64,000 nucleotides of DNA from Natrinema salifodinae (lineage in GTDB: Archaea > Halobacteriota > Halobacteria > Halobacteriales > Natrialbaceae). Shown here piece by piece: positions 5,232-61,397 of this stretch (positions within the stretch are counted from its first letter, which is position 1; each line of letters starts with the position of its first letter). Made by a program: the position numbers and the translations under genes. The notes beneath the pieces were generated by a model that ran no database searches, was not told the origin of the DNA, and was given only the letters and a program-made list of their open reading frames with translations. Location: positions 1 to 64,000 of the forward strand of contig NZ_FOIS01000006.1 in NCBI RefSeq assembly GCF_900110455.1, read 5' to 3'.

Positions 5232-5438
5232 GGAGCGGCCCGCCGATCCGCCGTTCGACGACGACGGCATCGCGTCTCTCGTCGCATCAATCCGTTTTCT
5301 GCCGCATTCCGCCGTTTTCTCCGCTTTCGAACCGGAAGTAGTCACGATTTCGGTCGACGTCCCGACGAGTCGAAAAACGAGGACCCCGATAGCGTTGCGG
5401 GTTCCCATTTCCGCTTCTCCGTCCGATCGCGGTCGCGC

Positions 5439-26471: not shown

Positions 26472-27701
26472 TTATTCGTCGTCCTCGAGTACGGCCAGGC
26501 GCGAATCTCGCAGGAGCACCTTCTTGACGATCGAGGGGTTCTCGAGCAGGCGGTGTTTCGCGTGGGCGCCGCGGCCGCGGCCCCGCCCTTCGCGCTCGGA
26601 CTGGATGACGTTGAGGAAGTTCTGTTCCTGGAGGATCTCCTGGACGCGGCGTTCGGAGAGCACGTCGAAGTCGAGCTGGCGGGCGACCTCCTTGTACTGG
26701 TTGTAGATAATCTTCGTCGGGAACTCCTTCTCCGAGCTGTTCTCGGTCAGCAGCGTCAGCGAGTAGAGGATGGCCTTGGCCTGCTGGGGCGAGCCCTCGA
26801 TCAGTTCGTTGAACCGGTCGGCCTCGGTCTTCTCCTTGGCGTCGCGGACGTGGTCCGCCGTGACCCGCGTGTCGTTTCGCTTCTTCGCGATCCGGCCCGC
26901 GTTCCGGAGGATGTCGATCGCCTTGCGCGCGTCGCCGTGTTCTTGGGCGGCGAGTGCGGCAGTCAGCGGGATGACGTCGTCGGAGAGCACCCCGTCGTGG
27001 AAGGCGTCGCGACGTTTCTCTAAAATTTCGACGAGCTGGTTGGCGTCGTACGGCGAGAAGACGAGTTCGTCACGCGAGAGGCTGGACTTGACCCGCTCGG
27101 AGAGATGATCCGGGAAGTCGATCTTGTTCGAGATGCCGATGATGCCGATGCTCGAGTCTGATATTCGACGGTTCTCGCCGGCCCGCGAGAGCTTTCGGAG
27201 GACCTCGTCGTCCTCGAGCATGTCGATCTCGTCTAAGATGACGATGGTGACGTCGGTGCAGTGGTCGACGGCCTGCCAGAGGCGCTTGTAGTAGTCGCCG
27301 GTCCCCAGACCGCGGTCGGGAACGGTGATCCCGCTTTCGTCGGGATCGTTGACGATCTGGGCGATCGTCTTGACGATCGACGCCTCCGTGTTCTGTTCGC
27401 CGCAGTCGATAAAGGCGTACTTCACGGTGACGTCGTCGTGCCGGGCTTCGGTGATCACGCGCTGGGTCACCGACCGCGAGATGAGCGATTTGCCGGTTCC
27501 GGTCTTCCCGAAGATGAACAGGTGGTTGGGCTCGCTCCCGAAGATGGCCGGATTCAGGGCGTCCGCAACCCGTTGCATCTGCTCGTCGCGGCCGACGATC
27601 CGATCCGGACCGGGCAGGTGCGTGATCTCGAGCAGACGCTCGTCGGCGAAGACCGGATCGTCGTACCGAAAGAGCGGGTCTCGATCGTCGTTGGCGGACA
27701 T
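26472..27701 (-). CDS. orc1: Orc1/Cdc6 replication initiator
   Basis: AAA+ origin-recognition protein of 409 residues. Walker A GKTGTGKS is at residues 65-72, Walker B VILDEID at about 154-160, and sensor-like GIIGISNKIDFP follows. The C-terminal region (from about 290) is the winged helix that binds origin boxes, ending RGAHAKHRLLENPSIVKKVLLRDS. Its start faces a gene-free region with clustered G-string repeats, the standard arrangement of a haloarchaeal origin with its own initiator. It is full length with no disrupted motifs, so it is likely functional. Confidence 0.95.
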   Translation of the reverse strand: MSANDDRDPLFRYDDPVFADERLLEITHLPGPDRIVGRDEQMQRVADALNPAIFGSEPNHLFIFGKTGTGKSLISRSVTQRVITEARHDDVTVKYAFIDCGEQNTEASIVKTIAQIVNDPDESGITVPDRGLGTGDYYKRLWQAVDHCTDVTIVILDEIDMLEDDEVLRKLSRAGENRRISDSSIGIIGISNKIDFPDHLSERVKSSLSRDELVFSPYDANQLVEILEKRRDAFHDGVLSDDVIPLTAALAAQEHGDARKAIDILRNAGRIAKKRNDTRVTADHVRDAKEKTEADRFNELIEGSPQQAKAILYSLTLLTENSSEKEFPTKIIYNQYKEVARQLDFDVLSERRVQEILQEQNFLNVIQSEREGRGRGRGAHAKHRLLENPSIVKKVLLRDSRLAVLEDDE

Positions 27702-27948
27702 TGCGGTACCCGGTCCCTACCAACTGGACTGAAATAAAGGTATGGAGATCGATCGCGGATGTAAATGTCCCGTCTAAGATACGAGCACCGGGAGAAACGG
27801 CCGCATGGCTAATAGAACCGGGAACCGCCTCCCTCGCGCTTCTAACCGCGACCGGCAGCGCGACGAGACACGCCAGGCGACTCCCGTCGAATCGACGGTT
27901 CGGCGGCGGGCGATGGCGGACGGCGGCGGACGACGACGAATTCGGGAC

Positions 27949-27972
27949 GGACACCCCCGTCGCGGATGTAAG
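27949..27972 (-). promoter_or_regulatory. Origin recognition box 1
   Basis: On the reverse strand it reads CTTACATCCGCGACGGGGGT followed by GTCC. It shares the core and G-string with the boxes at 28127 and 28278. Confidence 0.75.
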
Positions 27973-28126
27973 ACTCCGACGCTCACACCGGTAATCGGAA
28001 CGGTGCGCTCGGTTTCGGCATCGCGACCCCGTGTTCTGACCGGAAACAGAACCCCTATAAGGTCGGCAGAAACCGACGCGATCGTGACTGTACGCGAGAT
28101 TCCGCGACCCACACTGATCACCTACC

Positions 28127-28154
28127 GGGGACACACCCCCGTCGCGCTTGTAAC
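28127..28154 (-). promoter_or_regulatory. Origin recognition box 2
   Basis: Reverse strand GTTACAAGCGCGACGGGGGT then GTGTCCCC. It matches the box at 28278 at nearly every position and lies in the opposite orientation, with the two pointing toward each other. Confidence 0.8.
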
Positions 28155-28222
28155 GACAATAGGGCGGGGGTGATCGAGAAGTATCCGCGAATACGTGGAA
28201 ATAGACCCCCGAATCCGACCAG

Positions 28223-28250
28223 TTTTTCATCCGCGAGGGTAGTGTGTTCC
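28223..28250 (+). promoter_or_regulatory. Degenerate origin box
   Basis: Forward strand reads TTTTTCATCCGCGAGGGTAG then TGTGTTCC. It keeps the CCGCGA core and the TGTGT end, but the G-string is broken (GGGTAG). Likely a weaker binding site in the same orientation as the box at 28278. Confidence 0.5.
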
Positions 28251-28277
28251 AAAACAGAGTCCCCCCACGTACTTCTG

Positions 28278-28304
28278 CTTACAAACGCGAGGGGGGTGTG
28301 TCCC
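28278..28304 (+). promoter_or_regulatory. Origin recognition box 3
   Basis: Forward strand reads CTTACAAACGCGAGGGGGGT then GTGTCCC, the best box in this region, inverted relative to the copies at 27949 and 28127. Confidence 0.8.
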
Positions 28305-28494
28305 TCTCTCACTGGCAACCGACACGACCTGCCGCGTTCGATCGACCGTTTCCGCCGATTCCTTCCTTTTCCTCCCATCTACCCACACACTACTTCCCGT
28401 CTACCTCCCACACTATCGTCTCCCCGACACCACGTCCACTCGTTGGACATTACATCCACTCGTTGTCGCACGTTCATCTGTTATCGTGGTGGTT

Positions 28495-28547
28495 CTAGCG
28501 ATCTATCTAGTGACGTTCTATCTAGTGATCTAGAGTCCTAGAACTAG
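28495..28547. repeat. CTAG-rich, AT-rich tract in the origin
   Basis: Six CTAG tetranucleotides start at 28495, 28507, 28522, 28530, 28538 and 28544. The 11-mer CTATCTAGTGA is directly repeated at 28503-28513 and 28518-28528. The tract is much richer in A and T than its surroundings and is a candidate duplex-unwinding element. Confidence 0.5.
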
Positions 28548-28665
28548 GTATCTATCAGGAAGATAGGGAAGGAAAGGGAGGAAAGAGACGTTTCGGAGAG
28601 AAGACGACCGCAGAACGAAGTCCCGGAACACGCTCCTTTTTGCGATCCCGCTCAGTACTTCGGCT

Positions 28666-52729: not shown

Positions 52730-54324
52730 GCGCGCGGACGCTGCACCCGGCCTCGGTCGCCGTCCGATCGCTCTCTCGCAGCCTCAACACCGGGTTCCTG
52801 TTCTTCGTCATCGGCGTCGTCGTCTCGCCTGGCGGCAACGGGATCGATCTGCTGTCGGTCGTCGGGCTCGTCGCGATCGGGATCGTCACCGGAATCGTCT
52901 ACGAGTTCGCGTACTACCGGCGGTTCAGGTACGACCTCACCGACGACACGTTCGACGTCACCTCCGGCGTCATCGCGCGTCGGGATCGCGAACTTCCCCT
53001 TGGACGGATCCAGAACGTCGATATCCGACAGAACGTGATCGGCCGACTGCTCGGCATCGCGGCCGTCCACATCGAAACCGCGGGCGGCGGCGAGACCGAA
53101 GTCAGCCTCCGGTACGTCGCCGAAACGGAGGCCCAGCGACTCAGGCGACAACTCCGCCGCGGGGCGAGCGCAGAGGCGGACGCAGCCGAGGGACCCACTC
53201 GCGAGGCCCGAGACCGGAATCGAGCCACCGACGCCGCGACGGCCCCCGCGGAAGCGGACGAAACGCTCCTGTTCGAGATCCGCCCCCGCGAACTCGCGAT
53301 CCTGAGCCTCTTTACGATCGATCCCGGGGCCAGCCTCCTCGGCGGGATCGCGCTCTCCTTCGCCAGCGGGTTCGACCCGATGACCCTGTTCTCCGACCGC
53401 GTCGGCGTGTTGCCAGGCGCGGAAACCGGCCTGGTCGCGCTCGCGTGGGCCGTCGTGGGCTTCCTGTTGGCCGCCTGGTTCCTGAGCGCGACCCTCACGT
53501 TCACCCGTTACTACGACTTCCGGCTCACCCGTGTCGGCGACGAACTCTACTACGAGCGGGGGCTGCTCCAGCGCTACAGCGGGACGATCCCGCTCGAGAA
53601 GGTCCAGACGCTGACGATTTCGGAATCGGTCCCGTTCCGGTGGTTCGGCTACGCCGCCCTGAGCGTCGAGACGGCCGGGTACGCGCCCGGTCAGGACGGT
53701 CGGAGCACGGAGTCCGCGATTCCGCTCGCCGACGCCGACCGGGTGGCCGCGCTCGCCCGCGCGATCGAACCCTTCGGCTCGACTGACCTCGAGTCGCCGC
53801 CGCGGCGCGCTCGCGAGCGCTACGCCGTTCGCTACCTCCTCGTCGTCGCGGCAGTCGTCGGCCTCGCGTACCTGGTCGCGCGGTACACGACCGTCGTCCG
53901 GGACTGGTACGTCGTCGCCGCGCTCGCCGCTCTCGTCCCGATCGCCGCCCATCTGAAATGGACGAACCGCGGCTACCGCGTCGGCGACCGTTACTTCCTC
54001 ACGCGCACGGGGTTCTGGCGGCGCACGACGAAGGTCGTCCCCCACTACCGGGTCCAGGCCGTGCTCCACCAGGCGACGATCTTCCAGCGCCGGCGGCGAC
54101 TCGCGAGTGTAACGGCCGACACCGCCAGTTCCGCTACCTTCCTCGGCCGGGCCGCGACGGCCCACGATATCGACGCCGATCGCGGGCTCGAGCTGCAGGC
54201 GCTCATTGAGGAGCGGTTACAGGACCGACTCCGAGCACACGAGCGCCAGCGGACGGTTGGCCGGTGGTTCCGCGATGCGGCCGAGTCGACGAGGGAATCC
54301 GACGGGGACGGCGACGAGAACTGA
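52726..54324 (+). CDS. Multi-PH-domain membrane protein (YdbT-like), copy B
   Basis: A 532-residue paralogue of the protein at 47289-48974, with three bPH2 units and paired helices. Units are recognised at RYDLTDDTFDVTSGVIARRDRELPLGRIQNVDIRQNVIGRLLGIAAV, YDFRLTRVGDELYYERGLLQRYSGTIPLEKVQTLTI and YRVGDRYFLTRTGFWRRTTKVVPHYRVQAVLHQATIF. The linker after the first unit is acidic and shorter than in copy A. The start overlaps YdbS-B by four bases. Beyond it lies the low-GC island. Confidence 0.9.
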   Translation: MSARTLHPASVAVRSLSRSLNTGFLFFVIGVVVSPGGNGIDLLSVVGLVAIGIVTGIVYEFAYYRRFRYDLTDDTFDVTSGVIARRDRELPLGRIQNVDIRQNVIGRLLGIAAVHIETAGGGETEVSLRYVAETEAQRLRRQLRRGASAEADAAEGPTREARDRNRATDAATAPAEADETLLFEIRPRELAILSLFTIDPGASLLGGIALSFASGFDPMTLFSDRVGVLPGAETGLVALAWAVVGFLLAAWFLSATLTFTRYYDFRLTRVGDELYYERGLLQRYSGTIPLEKVQTLTISESVPFRWFGYAALSVETAGYAPGQDGRSTESAIPLADADRVAALARAIEPFGSTDLESPPRRARERYAVRYLLVVAAVVGLAYLVARYTTVVRDWYVVAALAALVPIAAHLKWTNRGYRVGDRYFLTRTGFWRRTTKVVPHYRVQAVLHQATIFQRRRRLASVTADTASSATFLGRAATAHDIDADRGLELQALIEERLQDRLRAHERQRTVGRWFRDAAESTRESDGDGDEN

Positions 54325-54498
54325 CCAGGCGAGGGTCGATCTCTTGTCCAGCACAACCTCGGAGGATGGTTCTGATGCGTGCCTTATTTACGTCGTAGTT
54401 ATTTTCGAAAAATCAACCAGTATCGTTGCAAGTGCGTCAGTACGACGAAGTGATTAGCGGCTACTGGCCTGTTCGTCACGAAGCGTGGTTAAAGGACT

Positions 54499-55278
54499 TT
54501 AGCTACTAACCGACTTCGCATCATCAAGATACTGCTCGAACAGAGAATTTGCCCACTTATGGAGCGGTCTTGACTTCGATTCAACCATCGCACGGATAAC
54601 ACCGTGTTCGTCTCGGAGAACAAGCTGAACCACCTTGTCTACGATCGTAACGGAACAAGGAATCTCCCCGTTATAAACCGAGATAGCTGTCGTATCGGCG
54701 TCGAGAATCGTATCCAACTGGTCACGCCACTCGGGGTTGTCATATAGCGATTGAATGGCCTCATCACTATATACGGCCTCGTACCGTTGACCGCGTTCTC
54801 GAACCGCAGTCATGTTCGCGTCAAGGCAGGTCTTGTTGTATGCGTACGAGAGTATGCGAACATGCTGTCCAGTACGCAATGAGTGTTCGACTCGATCCAT
54901 CGGTGCGTTCGGCTCAATCGGCGTCGGCGTGATTACTTCGGCATTAGCGAGCCAGCTCACGTCGAATCCATCAATATCCGTTGGAAGCCACGCCTCAAAC
55001 TCCTGCAACTCGTCGCTCACGCTGAGAGCTTGTTGGAGTGCACTCAGACAGTCAGAGACCCATGATCCGAGAGCGGTCGCTTCGTAGACGGCGTCCCGTT
55101 TCTGTATCCACTGACGTTTCTCAAAATCCTGGAGAATCCGACTGAGGGTTGCTTGCGAAGCACCAATCTCGTCCTGCAATTCACGGCGCGTAAGCGCGTC
55201 TCTTGTGAGTAATTTGAGTACCTGAACCCGATTCTCCGATCGAGACAGATACTCGATCTCATCGAGTGATTGGTCCAT
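54499..55278 (-). CDS. Winged-HTH regulator with FilR1-like effector domain
   Basis: A 259-residue haloarchaeal regulator. Residues about 8-75 form a winged HTH: YLSRSENRVQVLKLLTRDALTRRELQDEIGASQATLSRILQDFEKRQWI. The rest (about 100-255) is an effector domain resembling the FilR1-type regulatory domain, with RTGQHVRILSYAYNKTCLDANM and DTTAISVYNGEIPCSVTIVDKVVQLVLRDEHGVIRAMVES. A TATA-like CTTATACTG on the reverse strand gives a leaderless transcript. Its codon choice is less GC-rich than upstream genes. It is the left edge of the island and may be part of its control. Confidence 0.8.
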   Translation of the reverse strand: MDQSLDEIEYLSRSENRVQVLKLLTRDALTRRELQDEIGASQATLSRILQDFEKRQWIQKRDAVYEATALGSWVSDCLSALQQALSVSDELQEFEAWLPTDIDGFDVSWLANAEVITPTPIEPNAPMDRVEHSLRTGQHVRILSYAYNKTCLDANMTAVRERGQRYEAVYSDEAIQSLYDNPEWRDQLDTILDADTTAISVYNGEIPCSVTIVDKVVQLVLRDEHGVIRAMVESKSRPLHKWANSLFEQYLDDAKSVSS

Positions 55279-55455
55279 ATGGAACGAAGACCACGAGTCA
55301 GTATAAGCGCCGGTATCTCGGAGTCTTCGTTCGTGACTGAAGCGGGCTAGGTTGATTCAGTATGCACGGCTCCCCGTGAGATTTGAGCTGTAGATGTAGA
55401 TTCAGCATCTGCTGTGCACGAGAAATCATTTGCCTGACTTCAGGGACTCTCAATA

Positions 55456-55707
55456 TCACATGGGATGGTCTCCGAAGGATACGTTTCTGCTCTGTGATTG
55501 TTCCCAGTCGTACTGATTTTCGATGATATCCGCGAGTGTTTTCCTCGGGGTATCGGCTGATTCTACTGCCTTACGTGTCTTTTGTTGGTACTTTTTGACC
55601 GTGTTGCGTGCAACTCCCACCTCGTCGCTGATTTCCTGCTGGGAGTATCCGAGTGCCGAGTAATAGATGATCTGGCTCCGTTTCTCATCGTCTATCTCTG
55701 CTGGCAT
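55456..55707 (-). CDS. Short HTH DNA-binding protein
   Basis: An 83-residue protein whose first 50 residues are a helix-turn-helix of the resolvase/sigma type: IIYYSALGYSQQEISDEVGVARNTVKKYQQKTRK. The rest is polar, without a catalytic domain, so it is a stand-alone DNA-binding protein. Its promoter region (55713-55735) holds an imperfect copy of the operator palindrome found at 55777-55793, positioned between its TATA-like element and its start, which suggests autorepression. It is divergent from the aminotransferase gene. Confidence 0.7.
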   Translation of the reverse strand: MPAEIDDEKRSQIIYYSALGYSQQEISDEVGVARNTVKKYQQKTRKAVESADTPRKTLADIIENQYDWEQSQSRNVSFGDHPM

Positions 55708-55712
55708 GAGTA

Positions 55713-55732
55713 ATGTTCTACACTATGCTCAA
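55713..55732. promoter_or_regulatory. Imperfect operator copy before the HTH gene
   Basis: Reverse strand TTGAGCATAGTGTAGAACAT. It shares TTGA-x-CATAGTGT with the perfect palindrome at 55777-55793 and lies between the probable TATA element and the start of the HTH gene, the position of a repressor site. Confidence 0.55.
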
Positions 55733-55776
55733 ATGGAGTGATTTTACATAATATTTTCTCCTACTACAGGCGGTTA

Positions 55777-55793
55777 TTGAACATAGTGTTCAA
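55777..55793. promoter_or_regulatory. Perfect palindromic operator before the aminotransferase
   Basis: TTGAACA-TAG-TGTTCAA has perfect 7-base arms with a 3-base spacer. It lies just upstream of the TATA element ATTTTTATC (55806-55814), whose start codon distance is 26 bases, giving a leaderless aminotransferase mRNA. A site upstream of TATA suits an activator or a regulator acting on both divergent genes. Confidence 0.65.
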
Positions 55794-55835
55794 ACAGCCC
55801 GCAATATTTTTATCACTCTACTATGAGTCGGTAGT

Positions 55836-56792
55836 ATGAGCGAGCTCAAATCGTTTTCCGAGAAACAATCCACTGTTGAGTCGCTAGATACCATCTGGAT
55901 GGATGGGGAATTCATTGACTGGGATGAGGCCACAATTCACGTCCTCACCCACGGACTCCATTACGGAACCGGCGTCTTCGAGGGTGTTCGTTGCTATGAC
56001 ACTGAAGATGGTCCTGCTATCTTCCGGTGGGGCGATCATCTCGATCGTCTCTATGGGTCGGCTCAATCCTTTGATATCGAACTCCCATATACACCCGAGG
56101 AGTTAACCAAAGCAACTCGGGAACTCATCGACCGCCAACATCTCGACGACTGTTACATCCGTCCTATCGTTTTCTACGGGTATGATCATCTCGGCTTGAA
56201 CCCAACCGGAAGTCCGATACGGACCGCGATCGCTGCTTGGCCGTTCGGGGCGTATCTTAGAGACGACGGTCTTGAGAATGGGGTCGATGTGACCGTCTCA
56301 AATTGGCGGCAGTTCGCCTCCTCCCAGGTTCCGACGAATGCCAAGATGACAGGCGGGTACGTCAACAGCGTGCTTGCAAACCTTGAGGCGCGACAGGGAG
56401 GATATGACGAAGCGATTCTCCTCACTCCGGACGGGACCGTGGCCGAAGGACCTGGCGAGTGTCTCTTCCTAGTGAGTGACAACAAACTTCACACCCCTGC
56501 CCTCTCAGAAGGTGTCCTCCCGAGCATTACACGTGAAAGTGTTATTCGGATCGCGCGAGACCTCGGCTACACTGTTCACCACGAGTCGACTATCTCACTC
56601 GACAAACTGGAGACTGCCGATGAATTGTTCTTCGCGGGGACGGCCGCGGAAATCACACCAATCCGCTCGGTTAATGACATCGCCGTCGGCAACGGTACCA
56701 AAGGCCCTGTCACGGACGAAATCCAGTCCCGATTCTTCGACATCGTTGCACGTCGGACTGATGACTACGGGGAATGGTTCACTCTAGTGTAA
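55836..56792 (+). CDS. ilvE: Branched-chain-type aminotransferase (class IV PLP enzyme)
   Basis: A 318-residue fold-type IV PLP enzyme. The catalytic lysine is Lys170 in PTNAKMTGGYVNSVLA, the N-terminal substrate block HVLTHGLHYGTGVFEGVRCYDTEDG is intact, and EGPGECLFLV and the phosphate-binding ELFFAGTAAEITPIRSV follow. IlvE-type enzymes interconvert branched-chain amino acids and 2-keto acids with 2-oxoglutarate. Its codon use is AT-richer than that of the chromosome around it, and there is no ilv operon nearby; with an exporter downstream it may be an accessory copy. Confidence 0.88.
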   Translation: MSELKSFSEKQSTVESLDTIWMDGEFIDWDEATIHVLTHGLHYGTGVFEGVRCYDTEDGPAIFRWGDHLDRLYGSAQSFDIELPYTPEELTKATRELIDRQHLDDCYIRPIVFYGYDHLGLNPTGSPIRTAIAAWPFGAYLRDDGLENGVDVTVSNWRQFASSQVPTNAKMTGGYVNSVLANLEARQGGYDEAILLTPDGTVAEGPGECLFLVSDNKLHTPALSEGVLPSITRESVIRIARDLGYTVHHESTISLDKLETADELFFAGTAAEITPIRSVNDIAVGNGTKGPVTDEIQSRFFDIVARRTDDYGEWFTLV

Positions 56793-56800
56793 ACTAGAGT
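56781..56800. terminator. Hairpin enclosing the aminotransferase stop codon
   Basis: ACTCTAGT (56781-56788) pairs perfectly with ACTAGAGT (56793-56800). The four-base loop GTAA is a GNRA tetraloop and contains most of the stop codon (TAA 56790-56792). It is a probable transcript 3' structure, with a second inverted repeat at 56817-56838. Confidence 0.55.
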
Positions 56801-57200
56801 ACGCGCTAGTCAACGACCACGGGTTAGGTGACCCGTGGAATCTTGCCTCGACTATTTGAACACAGCGTCGGCACTTGGTGTGAACACAGATCACAATATG
56901 CTGAGTCGACACTCAGGGTCATCTAATTATCACACTCTGGTAATTTCTGATATGAACATACAATCAATGCAATAATCGGCTACCTAGCCGACATCAGTTC
57001 GTGAAAGGTTTTCACCATCGTGAATATCTTGCAGGAATGGTATAACTTCGAGTGGGTCGAAAGCTATTCCATGCAACAAACTGGATGGAAGCAGGTGTCT
57101 AACTATTGATGGGAGCGCTTCCTCGCGGATTTAACAGGGTATTTCTTCCCGAGAAAGAATTCGATATGAGACAACTGTCTCGATTTGTCAAACTTCCGGT
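56793..57200. promoter_or_regulatory. Intergenic control region before the exporter
   Basis: A 408-base AT-rich region. It contains the inverted repeat CCACGGGT/ACCCGTGG with 6-base loop (56817-56838), a third partial operator TTGAACACAGCGT (56856-56868) and the inverted repeat GAGACA-AC-TGTCTC (57168-57181), 19 bases before the exporter start. The last could be a repressor site. No gene is seen. Confidence 0.5.
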
Positions 57201-58145
57201 ATGAATCAGTGGACGGCATCTTTGGAAGAGCGGGTTGACCCGATGGTGGGCGTTGCGGTCGCAGTCATCGCCATCAGCACAAGTGCGATCCTCGTCCGGT
57301 GGAGCGAAGCGCCGAGCGTCGTGAAGGCGTTCTACCGTGTGTTGTTTGCGACGAGCATGGTCGCACCGTTCGCGCTCCGCGACATTGATGGTATCAAGAC
57401 TATCTCGGTCCGTGACCTCGGCTTCGCTGTGGTTTCAGGTTTGGCGCTTGCAGCCTACTTCGGGAGTTTTTTCGAGAGCCTTGAGTGGACATCGGTGGCA
57501 GCGTCAGTGACGCTCATCAGTACTCAGCCGATATTTGTTGGTATTGGCGCGGCATTCCTGCTCAACGAACGACTTACTTCGAGAATGTTTGTCGGGATGA
57601 TTGTCGCGCTTGTAGGGGCGTTCACGATGTCAGTCGGACCACTCATGGTCGATCCCCTCCTCGGTGGGGGGAACATCGTCGAAGTGCTTGCCGCCGCATT
57701 TGCAGGCAGCTCCGCCCAGCTCTACGGCAATGCCATCGCGTTCGGTGGGGCACTCGCAGGTGCCATTTATACCCTCACAGGGCGCTCACTCCGCCAGCGG
57801 CTTTCGCTGTTCGTCTACACGTTCATCATCTACACCGTGAGTACGGTCGCCCTCGGCGGCCTTGCCATCGGAACCGGCGCACAATTGCTCGGCTATGCGC
57901 CGACGGAGTGGGTACTTTTCTTCGCAATGGCGCTCATTCTAGACCTGTTCGGGCAAACCGTATATAATTGGGCGCTGAAGTACGTCAAGGCGAGTGTTAT
58001 GAGCGTCTCGCTATTGGCCGACCCAGTTGCAGCCACAATTCTCGCGCTCGTGCTACTCGGTGAAGTCCCGGAAGTCGTGATGATTCTCGGTGGTGTCGTC
58101 GTGCTGGTGGGAATCTACCTCACGAATCGTGCACGGGTGACGTAA
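57201..58145 (+). CDS. EamA/DMT family transporter of the island
   Basis: A 314-residue protein with about ten membrane helices in two EamA repeats (first ISTSAILVRWSEAPSVVKAFYRVLFATSMV; second GNAIAFGGALAGAIYTLTGRSLRQRLS). The second half ends SVSLLADPVAATILALVLLGEVP, a signature of DMT exporters. It probably exports amino acids or related metabolites and may pair with the aminotransferase upstream. A possible alternative start is Met15 (57243). The upstream intergenic region has two inverted repeats and a partial operator copy. Confidence 0.88.
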   Translation: MNQWTASLEERVDPMVGVAVAVIAISTSAILVRWSEAPSVVKAFYRVLFATSMVAPFALRDIDGIKTISVRDLGFAVVSGLALAAYFGSFFESLEWTSVAASVTLISTQPIFVGIGAAFLLNERLTSRMFVGMIVALVGAFTMSVGPLMVDPLLGGGNIVEVLAAAFAGSSAQLYGNAIAFGGALAGAIYTLTGRSLRQRLSLFVYTFIIYTVSTVALGGLAIGTGAQLLGYAPTEWVLFFAMALILDLFGQTVYNWALKYVKASVMSVSLLADPVAATILALVLLGEVPEVVMILGGVVVLVGIYLTNRARVT

Positions 58146-58171
58146 ATGGCCAATACATCTGAAATACGTAA

Positions 58172-59748
58172 TAGTTTAGGATGGTACAACTGGCCCAGTT
58201 GAAGCGCTTATTATGTAATCTCTATCACCAATCTTGTATGAATAGTTTCAACGAATCCCGCCCCAAAGAGAGTCCTCGTAGGTGCTATCTGTGCGAGGCG
58301 TACCAACTCGGAATTACCATTCGAAACGAACTCCAGCATACTGATCTCGTCACCGCATTTGAGAACCTCGACCAGTCGATTGATGCCATCGAAGACGGCT
58401 ATCCAGCATGGCATCCTGCCCCGCTCTCCTTTCGCGCGATGGTTCTTGCGTCCATCTTCATGGAAATTACGGGTGATTCGTACGCCGCATTCACGCGACA
58501 GCTTACCCGGCAGCCGGAAATTTCCAGTCTCCTTGGGTTCAGCCGTATCCCTGACGAATCGGCGTTTTCTCGAGCGTGGCGGAATCGGTTTGACGACGCT
58601 GTCCAAGAATACGTCCAGACTGCGGCTTACTTCGTCGTCAAAGAAGTCCACTTTGAATCTGGGCGGGCGTCGAACGCCTCCTACGAGGACACACAATTTT
58701 TCGAGTTACAGACGTTCATGGGGATGGTTCGGTGCGGGACCGCACAGGGAGCTACTCGCTTCCAGTACCGGCGTGGTGAAGAGTATGGACCCCATGGCGA
58801 CACCCATCTCCGCGCAGTCAAGCAGTTCGATCCTAAAGAACTCGTAAACGGATTCAATGAGACGACGGATCGCTTGCTCTCTGTCATCGCCTCTGAAGCA
58901 TCATTCCCCCGGCCAGTCACTGCCGCGATCGACATCACCACCATTCCCTATTACGGAGACGTCGAAGAGATGCCGATGGTCAGCGGGACGAAAGACAGAG
59001 ACGGTCGAGCGTTCAAATTTGCGACGCTCTCGATCATCGGGCAGAATGTCCCGCTCGTTCTCGCCGTTGAGCCGGTCCGAGAGAGTTCTGCGTGGGACGA
59101 AAACTCGCCGAATCAGATTCATCGTACTGTGCGGCGACTCGTTCAACGAGCGAAAGAACACGTCCCCATCGAGACGGTGCTCTGTGATCGGGAGTTCGAC
59201 TCAATAAGAGTGTTTCAGACGCTCTCGAACCTCGATATGAATTACCTCATCCCAAAACGAGTCTCCAGCCCCGAGCAGGACGTATTTGACCAGATGGACG
59301 AAGACGATCAGGACGTGGCTGTTGAATCGGCCTCCATCCACGTCGAGGCGGGCTCGCACCCAATGCGGTTCTTGTACGTTCCGTCGACGAGCGGCGAGGG
59401 GACAACCGTCTTCGCAACTAATCTCCGAGTTGGACCCGACGAGGCTGAGACATTCTGTCGGCGTTACAGCCGGCGCTGGCAAATCGAGAGCGAGTACAAA
59501 TCGATCAAAGGTGATTTCCTCGCCAAGACCTCCTCAAAAGACTACCGTGTACGCTTGTTCTACTTCGTGTTTGCCGTGCTCTTGTACAATATCTGGCGGC
59601 TCACCGATTTCCTACTGAAAGCGGGCGTCGAGGGCGAGATGGACTACGCGCCCGTCTTGACTGCAGGCGAATGTGTGGAACTGATCGCCTCCGCGCTGAT
59701 TCCGCCTGACTAACCGCTTTACTCTCGCCGAGTTAGCTGTTCGAGAGT
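58172..59748 (+). mobile_element. Insertion sequence of the IS4 superfamily
   Basis: This interval encloses one full-length transposase gene and short flanks, starting after the DMT exporter. No firm terminal inverted repeats were found. A perfect palindrome CAACTGG-C-CCAGTTG (58187-58201) lies at the left side and a 7-base-stem hairpin (59721-59748) at the right. Real ends may be a little further out: an imperfect match of AGTTTAGGATGG (58172) with the reverse complement near 59886-59902 is too weak to decide. Confidence 0.5.
58181..59713 (+). CDS. IS4-superfamily DDE transposase
   Basis: Transposase of 510 residues, catalysing cut-and-paste transposition with a DDE/YREK core. Asp251 (AAIDITTIPYYGD), Asp336 (VLCDREFD) and Glu436 are the catalytic triad. 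The IS4 signature Y-x2-R-x3-E-x6-K is met exactly by Tyr429, Arg432, Glu436 and Lys443 in RRYSRRWQIESEYKSIK. The next block, GDFLAKTSSKDYRVRLFYFVFAVLLYN, is typical of haloarchaeal members. The frame is intact, so the element may still be active. Met20 (58238) is a plausible alternative start because the first residues overlap a palindrome. Confidence 0.9.
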   Translation: MVQLAQLKRLLCNLYHQSCMNSFNESRPKESPRRCYLCEAYQLGITIRNELQHTDLVTAFENLDQSIDAIEDGYPAWHPAPLSFRAMVLASIFMEITGDSYAAFTRQLTRQPEISSLLGFSRIPDESAFSRAWRNRFDDAVQEYVQTAAYFVVKEVHFESGRASNASYEDTQFFELQTFMGMVRCGTAQGATRFQYRRGEEYGPHGDTHLRAVKQFDPKELVNGFNETTDRLLSVIASEASFPRPVTAAIDITTIPYYGDVEEMPMVSGTKDRDGRAFKFATLSIIGQNVPLVLAVEPVRESSAWDENSPNQIHRTVRRLVQRAKEHVPIETVLCDREFDSIRVFQTLSNLDMNYLIPKRVSSPEQDVFDQMDEDDQDVAVESASIHVEAGSHPMRFLYVPSTSGEGTTVFATNLRVGPDEAETFCRRYSRRWQIESEYKSIKGDFLAKTSSKDYRVRLFYFVFAVLLYNIWRLTDFLLKAGVEGEMDYAPVLTAGECVELIASALIPPD

Positions 59749-61397
59749 GGCAACCCTATTCAGCAGCGTCAAAATCCACACAATTTCTGACGCTCGCCCG
59801 GTAGTTCGACCCCGAGGATTCAAAATTAATGCTTGATCGGTGTGAATCACCACGAATAGATGTCGATTCAACCCAAAACTGGCCTATCCTCCGAAACTGT
59901 GGTGTCCAGTGATGCGGTTACTTTGTATAGCGATATGGGATATATACGTCCAGTGCCCGACGGCACTTCACTCAAAACATGGTATGTGCTAACGTGAATG
60001 TGAGCGGAACCACCGCGATTTCGCGGTCGCAGAACGCGATTCGGTCCGGCAGACGTGACTCGGTACAGCGGTCTCCGCCCGTTCCCAAGCGGTTCCGGTG
60101 GCCCAGACGCTGATCTCCCCTTCGATCGGGAACAGACGCGCTCAGTGGGCGTCTGCGCGCGTTTACGATAACCGCTGTCCCGTTCGCTCGGCGTCCGTCT
60201 TCACCGTCTGTATGCCTGCGTGCTGGTGTGCTGATCTCCCGGCGCCGGACCGGGCGCCTAGTCGCCACTTCTCCTTCCTCACGTCTCGAGTCCCCGGTTT
60301 TCGTCGCCGCTATCGCAGCCGCGACGGTCTCCACCTTCGGATCCGTCGAGACCGGGACGGGGTGTTCCGAACGAACCGGATCGTCGAATCGGCGTCCGTG
60401 CTCCGACGCCGAGACCGCCACAATCGACTGCGTATCGCGAGGACGTCGTTCGCCACTGGCACCCGATCGTCACGGCGATTACGACCGGGATACTCGGACG
60501 GCGATCTACGAACGGAACGCGAGAATCCAACTACCGAAACCAGGCGTCGAGCAGCGACCGTTCCAGACGCTCGCTCCAGTCAGCACTACCGATTCCAGCC
60601 ATGGACCCGGGCGGGGCCGCGTTGCGTTCCCTGAGTCTGCTTCCTCGTCAGTAGGTCTCAGTGCTTGGTGTCCGATGCTCGGTGGTAGGGAGGCCAATCC
60701 GAACGCGTCGCCGGCCCGATTGCGAGGCCGGCACCGGACGGTCGTCTCCGATGGCGCGGTTGGCCGTCCAGTTCTCGCAGAGAGTCAAGGAGCGCAACTG
60801 ATTTTCCTGGCGTTTGATCGGTCTCTCGCCTTCCTCCACAGCCAAGCCTCCTTCCGCGTTCCGACGCCTTCGAAGAGAGCCGGTCCGGGGCCGGTTCGCC
60901 AGGCCGGGAAAGTCGCCACATCGACGGTCCCGCCGATTCCGCTCGTCCCGACCGGTGCCGGCGAACGGCGTCCGTCGACTCGTTTCGGACTGCCGTGCGT
61001 TCGATCGTGATCCGATCGGGGGTGTGGTACCGAGACCGTACATGACTGACTCGGCGAACCGCGCCGCGCTCGATCGACGGGCAAATCAAGTCGACCTCGC
61101 GACTCGGTCGACGGCCAGGCGGTCGTCTCGAGTGGCAGTCGCCTACTCGATGAGGCGAACAGATGCCCGGCATCGCGACACCGATGGGCCCAGTACGAAC
61201 TCACCCGCTGTATCTGTATCTCGAATTCTGGTACTAGACTTACAACATCTTTATCTCAAACGGTAGGACTTAGAGTAAGCTAATCTTATATTCTGGCACC
61301 CATTTTGGCGCAAATGATATCCCACAATCTGAGATAAACATACTTAGCTCGAATAATGGGTAGATTGAATATCGTCGCTGCTAACGGGTTGGGTATG
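59714..61397. other. 1.65-kb region with no recognisable gene
   Basis: Between the insertion sequence and the DUF5805 gene. The first 240 bases and the last 180 are AT-rich; the middle (60000-61250) is GC-rich but its open frames, including one at 60228-61010, are Arg/Ser/Pro-rich without any recognisable motif or acidic bias. It contains a short hairpin CCGCGA-TT-TCGCGG (60013-60026). It could be a decayed gene, non-coding RNA or an integration scar. Confidence 0.5.

Follow-up and report, generated by a model that had tools for sequence, protein, structure and literature searches.

The intergenic DNA upstream of an orc1/cdc6-family gene in the 64-kb stretch analyzed here (the window) very probably serves a Natrialbaceae haloarchaeon (Natrinema type) as a chromosomal replication origin, with the adjoining Orc1/Cdc6 protein as its initiator. 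As a whole, this assignment draws on boxes that chance does not account for, their recurrence in 99 of 125 genomes, near-fixed spacing, the linkage between box and Orc, a full-length Orc, an ortholog with ARS activity, and a CTAG-rich zone of low stability. Counted against it are the weakness of the pFJ5 clone, the lack of a clear skew inversion, the dormant origin of Haloferax mediterranei, and genomes that lack the CTAG cluster. The sequence-only reading of this DNA had proposed an orc-linked origin with a non-classical box core and two sets of sites; the box/Orc linkage and the ARS activity of the ortholog (PMC5350488) bear out the first part of that proposal but two sets of sites are not supported. 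The analysis provides a box consensus and an array for an origin kept across most of the Natrialbaceae, at a locus type for which the standard predictor, Ori-Finder 2, reported one ORB where four boxes are present.

A box array upstream of an orc1/cdc6 gene

The gene at 26472-27701 (minus strand) encodes a 409-aa Orc1/Cdc6 protein that scored 413.6 bits against TIGR02928 (cut-off 181.3) and covers the full profile, with intact Walker A (GKTGTGKS) and Walker B (ILDEID) motifs. The protein is full-length (AAA+ and winged-helix domains, >300 aa), its sequence matches 2qby_A and 2v1u_A, and its kin include Sulfolobus Cdc6-1 and Aeropyrum ORC1. The boxes lie upstream of this gene in the intergenic region that directly adjoins it, and their placement next to orc1 in the sequence-only reading was correct. 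An Rfam search of the 64-kb window gave no matches.

The consensus TTACAnnCGCGAnGGGGGTGTG occurs four times upstream of orc1/cdc6, in three copies that are near-perfect and one that is degenerate. The proximal copy (TTACATCCGCGACGGGGGTGTC, 27950-27971, minus strand) has one mismatch, and the inner copy (TTACAAGCGCGACGGGGGTGTG, 28132-28153, minus strand) and the distal copy (TTACAAACGCGAGGGGGGTGTG, 28279-28300, plus strand) have none; the latter two are 147 bp apart from start to start. The degenerate copy (28225-28246, plus strand) retains a G-run and has three mismatches. The repeats between 27950 and 28300 thus carry a G-string and are arranged in inverted orientation, two facing two. The four matches in the window compare with a mean of 0.00 in 100 dinucleotide shuffles. 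When the whole 4.27-Mb genome was scanned, no further copies with two or fewer mismatches were found, a single site on a different contig was the sole other match at three mismatches, and a reversed control pattern had 0 matches. The core TTAnAnnCGCGA is also present at 27753-27764 and 27834-27845, and five such cores fall within 540 bp compared to 0.5 expected over the whole window. Because the pattern was derived from the window's own copies, the independent test is its recurrence in relatives.

Three strong inverted boxes had been recognized previously at these places, as had a degenerate copy (given as 28223) and a half copy (given as 27752), and all were recovered here. The observation that the core is unlike the classical ORB also holds, since the canonical Orc1 of this genome is accompanied by a different ORB, TCCAGTCGAAACGAAGGGG. 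The G-string consensus is present as claimed but it is less distinctive than was suggested, given that haloarchaeal ORBs are already known to be diverse, G-string-bearing, and linkage-specific (PMC3528665).

Conservation with the Orc family and origin activity

At two or fewer mismatches the box is present in 99 of 125 Natrialbaceae genomes, compared to about 1 of 125 for the reversed control. The array was then compared around 50 orthologs, the locus in the window included. The same four-box array, in the same order and with near-fixed spacing (54/93/147 bp), recurs across the 50 Natrialbaceae loci: the distal copy, the degenerate copy mostly 54 bp from it, the inner copy facing the opposite way, and then the proximal copy (present in 49 loci). 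The distance from the distal to the inner copy is mostly 147 bp and ranges from 138 to 149 bp. These spacings appear to be near whole helical turns. The degenerate copy keeps its place across the 50 loci and is therefore a real, conserved element. A motif search beside orc1 in related genomes had been suggested as a check on the boxes, and the four-box array passes it.

Presence of the box is tied to presence of the Orc. All 11 box-positive genomes tested have an ortholog with 81-96% identity, whereas all 26 box-negative Natrialbaceae genomes, a few of which are incomplete, lack one, their best matches having 49-52% identity. The box persists with small changes or shifts in Halorussus, Halomarina, and Halogranum, where Orc identity is 65-76% (for example TTACAGCGGCGA in Halomarina). 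With other boxes at other Orc genes of the genome, the box sequence is specific to the linked Orc family. Because the array recurs in 50 loci and box and Orc are present together and absent together, the sequence comparisons identify the four boxes as Natrialbaceae-specific origin recognition boxes (ORBs) of the known haloarchaeal kind.

Predicted origins of Natrinema sp. J7 have been cloned (Wang et al. 2017, PMC5350488), and the ortholog of the present locus is oriC9 (ARS-5, pFJ5). Its identity follows from the PARS-5 primers, which match the N. gari ortholog exactly (L029:3008-3030 and 5310-5330) and bracket the boxes, the CTAG sites, and the orc gene. The origin was hence already known as a locus, but Ori-Finder 2 counted one ORB for oriC9 and the four-box array is not described in PMC5350488. 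The pFJ5 clone was reported to replicate independently, although poorly (<10 cfu/ug, compared to about 1000 cfu/ug for other J7 origin clones; PMC5350488), and the origin may therefore be weak or dormant.

An inversion of GC skew near 28 kb had been predicted. Skew in the window changes sign near 28 kb, with similar local changes elsewhere. In the complete chromosome of N. zhouii, in which the ortholog is at coordinate 2261, skews are about 0.01; they form a wide plateau of low values around 0 and peak near 1.85 Mb, and no sharp inversion was seen in 80 sampled 20-kb stretches. The predicted inversion was thus not observed, but haloarchaeal skew is too weak here to refute an origin.

That the site is dormant or very weak, with Orc-bound boxes kept at a place that rarely fires while other origins do the work, is a serious possibility although not the one we favor; it overlaps with our preferred explanation and differs from it only on firing. 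The low efficiency of pFJ5 relative to the other J7 origins and the lack of a clear skew inversion fit a dormant origin, and Haloferax mediterranei provides a precedent in a dormant origin that bears inverted ORBs (PMC4595724). It is harder to reconcile with an array and spacing conserved over the whole family and with the independent replication reported for pFJ5. Titration or incompatibility can also lower efficiency, as oriC2 of Haloarcula hispanica shows, and the J7 clone pFJ2, whose forward primer matches the canonical oriC1-type locus with three mismatches, gave no colonies (PMC5350488).

The CTAG cluster and the candidate unwinding zone

Six of the 31 CTAG sites in the 64-kb window fall within 28495-28547, beyond the distal box, and are putative targets of an orphan m4C methyltransferase. 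A candidate unwinding element, the 60 bp with the lowest stability in the intergenic region (28501-28560), overlaps with this cluster. Neither the cluster nor the overlap had been described in the sequence-only reading. In most relatives the cluster lies beyond the box pair, at a distance of 100-300 bp. When the 50 loci were anchored on the distal box, CTAG density was 31-38/kb at 250-150 bp outside it and 24/kb in the next 50 bp, compared to 0.28/kb elsewhere in these loci. The commonest distance between neighboring sites is 5 or 6 bp. Within the zone from −300 to −60, CTAG is the most over-represented of the 256 4-mers (266 observed versus about 43-45 expected), and in the six pairs tested this zone aligned no better than shuffled sequence. 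Relatives thus maintain the number of sites, whereas the positions turn over. In 46 of 50 loci, the least stable 60 bp is on the outer (CTAG) side of the box pair; the DNA between the boxes contains a moderately AT-rich stretch (44-49%).

CTAG enrichment beside orc is accompanied by a gene for a putative orphan CTAG-type methyltransferase. The probable gene (L102) encodes TSPPY and FWGTGTT motifs and matches PF01555 with 124 bits; CTAG is its presumed specificity. Methyltransferases of this type were present in all 47 relatives searched, both with and without a CTAG cluster. Because Salinadaptatus, Natribaculum, a metagenome-assembled genome (MAG L053), and Halorussus (loci including L042, L053, and L062) have the boxes and the methyltransferase but no cluster, the cluster is dispensable.

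Blow et al. 2016 (PMC4752239, Fig. 6D) were the first to report CTAG clusters upstream of orc1/cdc6; their report and the present locus share a high CTAG density next to orc1/cdc6 and an orphan m4C methyltransferase. What is new here is the exact position of the cluster, 100-300 bp beyond the distal box, and its overlap with the candidate unwinding zone over the least stable DNA; in addition, the cluster is not obligatory here even when the methyltransferase is present. Work on Haloferax volcanii in 2018 found CTAG enrichment at only one of its origins, and a strain without the CTAG methyltransferase and other restriction-modification genes had no growth defect (PMC5867850).

By analogy with solved archaeal Orc-ORB complexes, the winged helix of the Orc would read TTACAnnCGCGA and the AAA+ insertion would read the G-run, and contact of the AAA+ domain with the G-run has been reported for other archaeal ORBs. 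The assembled Orc array would strain the neighboring DNA. Melting is expected on the far side of the distal box, where the DNA is AT-rich and CTAG-dense; the 125 bp that separate the inverted boxes are a less likely site. MCM would be loaded at the opened zone. The conserved orphan methyltransferase probably modifies the CTAG cluster to m4CTAG, and the state of methylation may set the timing of initiation or change how the DNA melts. We consider it rather unlikely that the locus represents a variant layout in which the unwinding zone lies outside the inverted ORB pair, is made of freely turning-over CTAG sites, and controls firing through its m4C methylation. If true, such a layout would be an archaeal analogue of Dam/SeqA control in which the number of sites is maintained but their positions are not. 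The CTAG patch over the least stable DNA provides a precise, testable element for the role of the conserved haloarchaeal CTAG methyltransferase.

Sites beside the presumed promoter and other origins of the genome

Closer to the gene, a half box without a G-run (TTACATCCGCGA, 27753-27764, minus strand) is located directly upstream of a conserved, presumed TATA element of orc (CTTTATTT, 27732-27739, minus strand). Of the 50 loci, 40 carry TTTACAnnCGCGAnCGA at the half-box position, where Halorussus instead carries ATACATCCGCGACG. The half box is likely an autoregulatory site through which the Orc would repress its own gene. A variant box (TTAGAAGCGCGAGGGAGGCGGT, 27824-27845, minus strand; core TTAGAAGCGCGA at 27834-27845) had previously been overlooked, and TTAGAAnCGCGA is found in 34 of 50 loci.

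Because most loci have the half box immediately next to the presumed TATA element, and because H. hispanica is known to have titrating ORB arrays downstream of cdc6E, the boxes might be mainly autorepression sites for orc or a reservoir that titrates Orc, and not an origin at all. This explanation is improbable: the main array is 250-600 bp from the gene and consists of inverted pairs at nearly constant distances, with DNA of low stability on its far side, features that are needless for promoter control, and the J7 ortholog has ARS activity. A second initiator-site class in the same origin has next to no probability, because the palindrome proposed for it (GTTCTG-N8-CAGAAC), although present at 28033-28052 with its 6-bp inverted arms and although two ORB classes at one orc gene have been reported for two other haloarchaea, has no counterpart at the aligned position in 17 close relatives.

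The genome contains about 13 orc-like genes; besides the one next to this array, at least six have a repeated box of their own, and each of these boxes includes a G-run. Because haloarchaeal ORBs are diverse (PMC3528665) and these Orc genes each have their own box, the consensus found here is not surprising. The Orc encoded at 26472-27701 was also considered as the canonical Orc1, the oriC1 initiator, and rejected: it scored 319 bits against NF001625 (cut-off 501), which places it outside the universal haloarchaeal Orc1 group, and another Orc fits better. The best fit, and the Orc of canonical type, is encoded at C4:565493 (L012), with 473 bits on a fragment and classical ORBs. The box core in the window is TTACAnnCGCGA instead of the classical TTCCA...GAAAC.

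Like the canonical haloarchaeal oriC1 (TTCCA...GAAAC plus a G-run), the window origin has inverted boxes, G-runs, an ORB-like site near the orc start, and a CTAG cluster nearby. In oriC1 the AT-rich/CTAG zone is usually between the inverted ORBs, whereas at the window origin it is outside. The least stable DNA is likewise between inverted boxes at several other origins of this genome and at most oriC1 loci of relatives, where CTAG clusters, if present, overlap with or adjoin it. An AT-rich unwinding element flanked by inverted ORBs is the typical layout but not a requirement in Wu et al. 2012 (PMC3528665). The origins in that study share with the window origin inverted G-string boxes upstream of orc/cdc6 and a box linked to the Orc family; the window origin differs in its core, TTACAnnCGCGA, and is not oriC1. 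A printed statement of the TTACAnnCGCGA consensus was not found in the literature text; the logos in PMC3528665 are figures.

Several features of the other origins were also observed. The canonical Orc1 (G000:C4:565493-567256; L012, L019, L212) is a 624-aa frame in which a long insert, acidic and of low complexity, separates Walker A from Walker B, and the corresponding frames in relatives are about 490-700 aa. Between the canonical ORBs of the oriC1 loci (L212-L230), CTAG sites in different species keep spacings of about 10, 20, 21, and 31 bp, which approximate whole helical turns; the cluster at the window origin is irregular by comparison. Another Orc gene (L007, G000:C1:339661-343842) is accompanied by eight copies of a different box, TCACCGGAAACCCGGTGTGGGG, and has no CTAG within 1.5 kb on either side, making it an origin-like region without a CTAG element. 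Elsewhere in the window, the segment at 54000-60000 looks like acquired DNA, with a GC content of about 51-54% compared to 64-70% around it and several CTAG sites. Judged from their translations alone, its open reading frames encode an IS-type transposase-like protein (58181-59713), an aminotransferase-like protein, and an EamA-like transporter.
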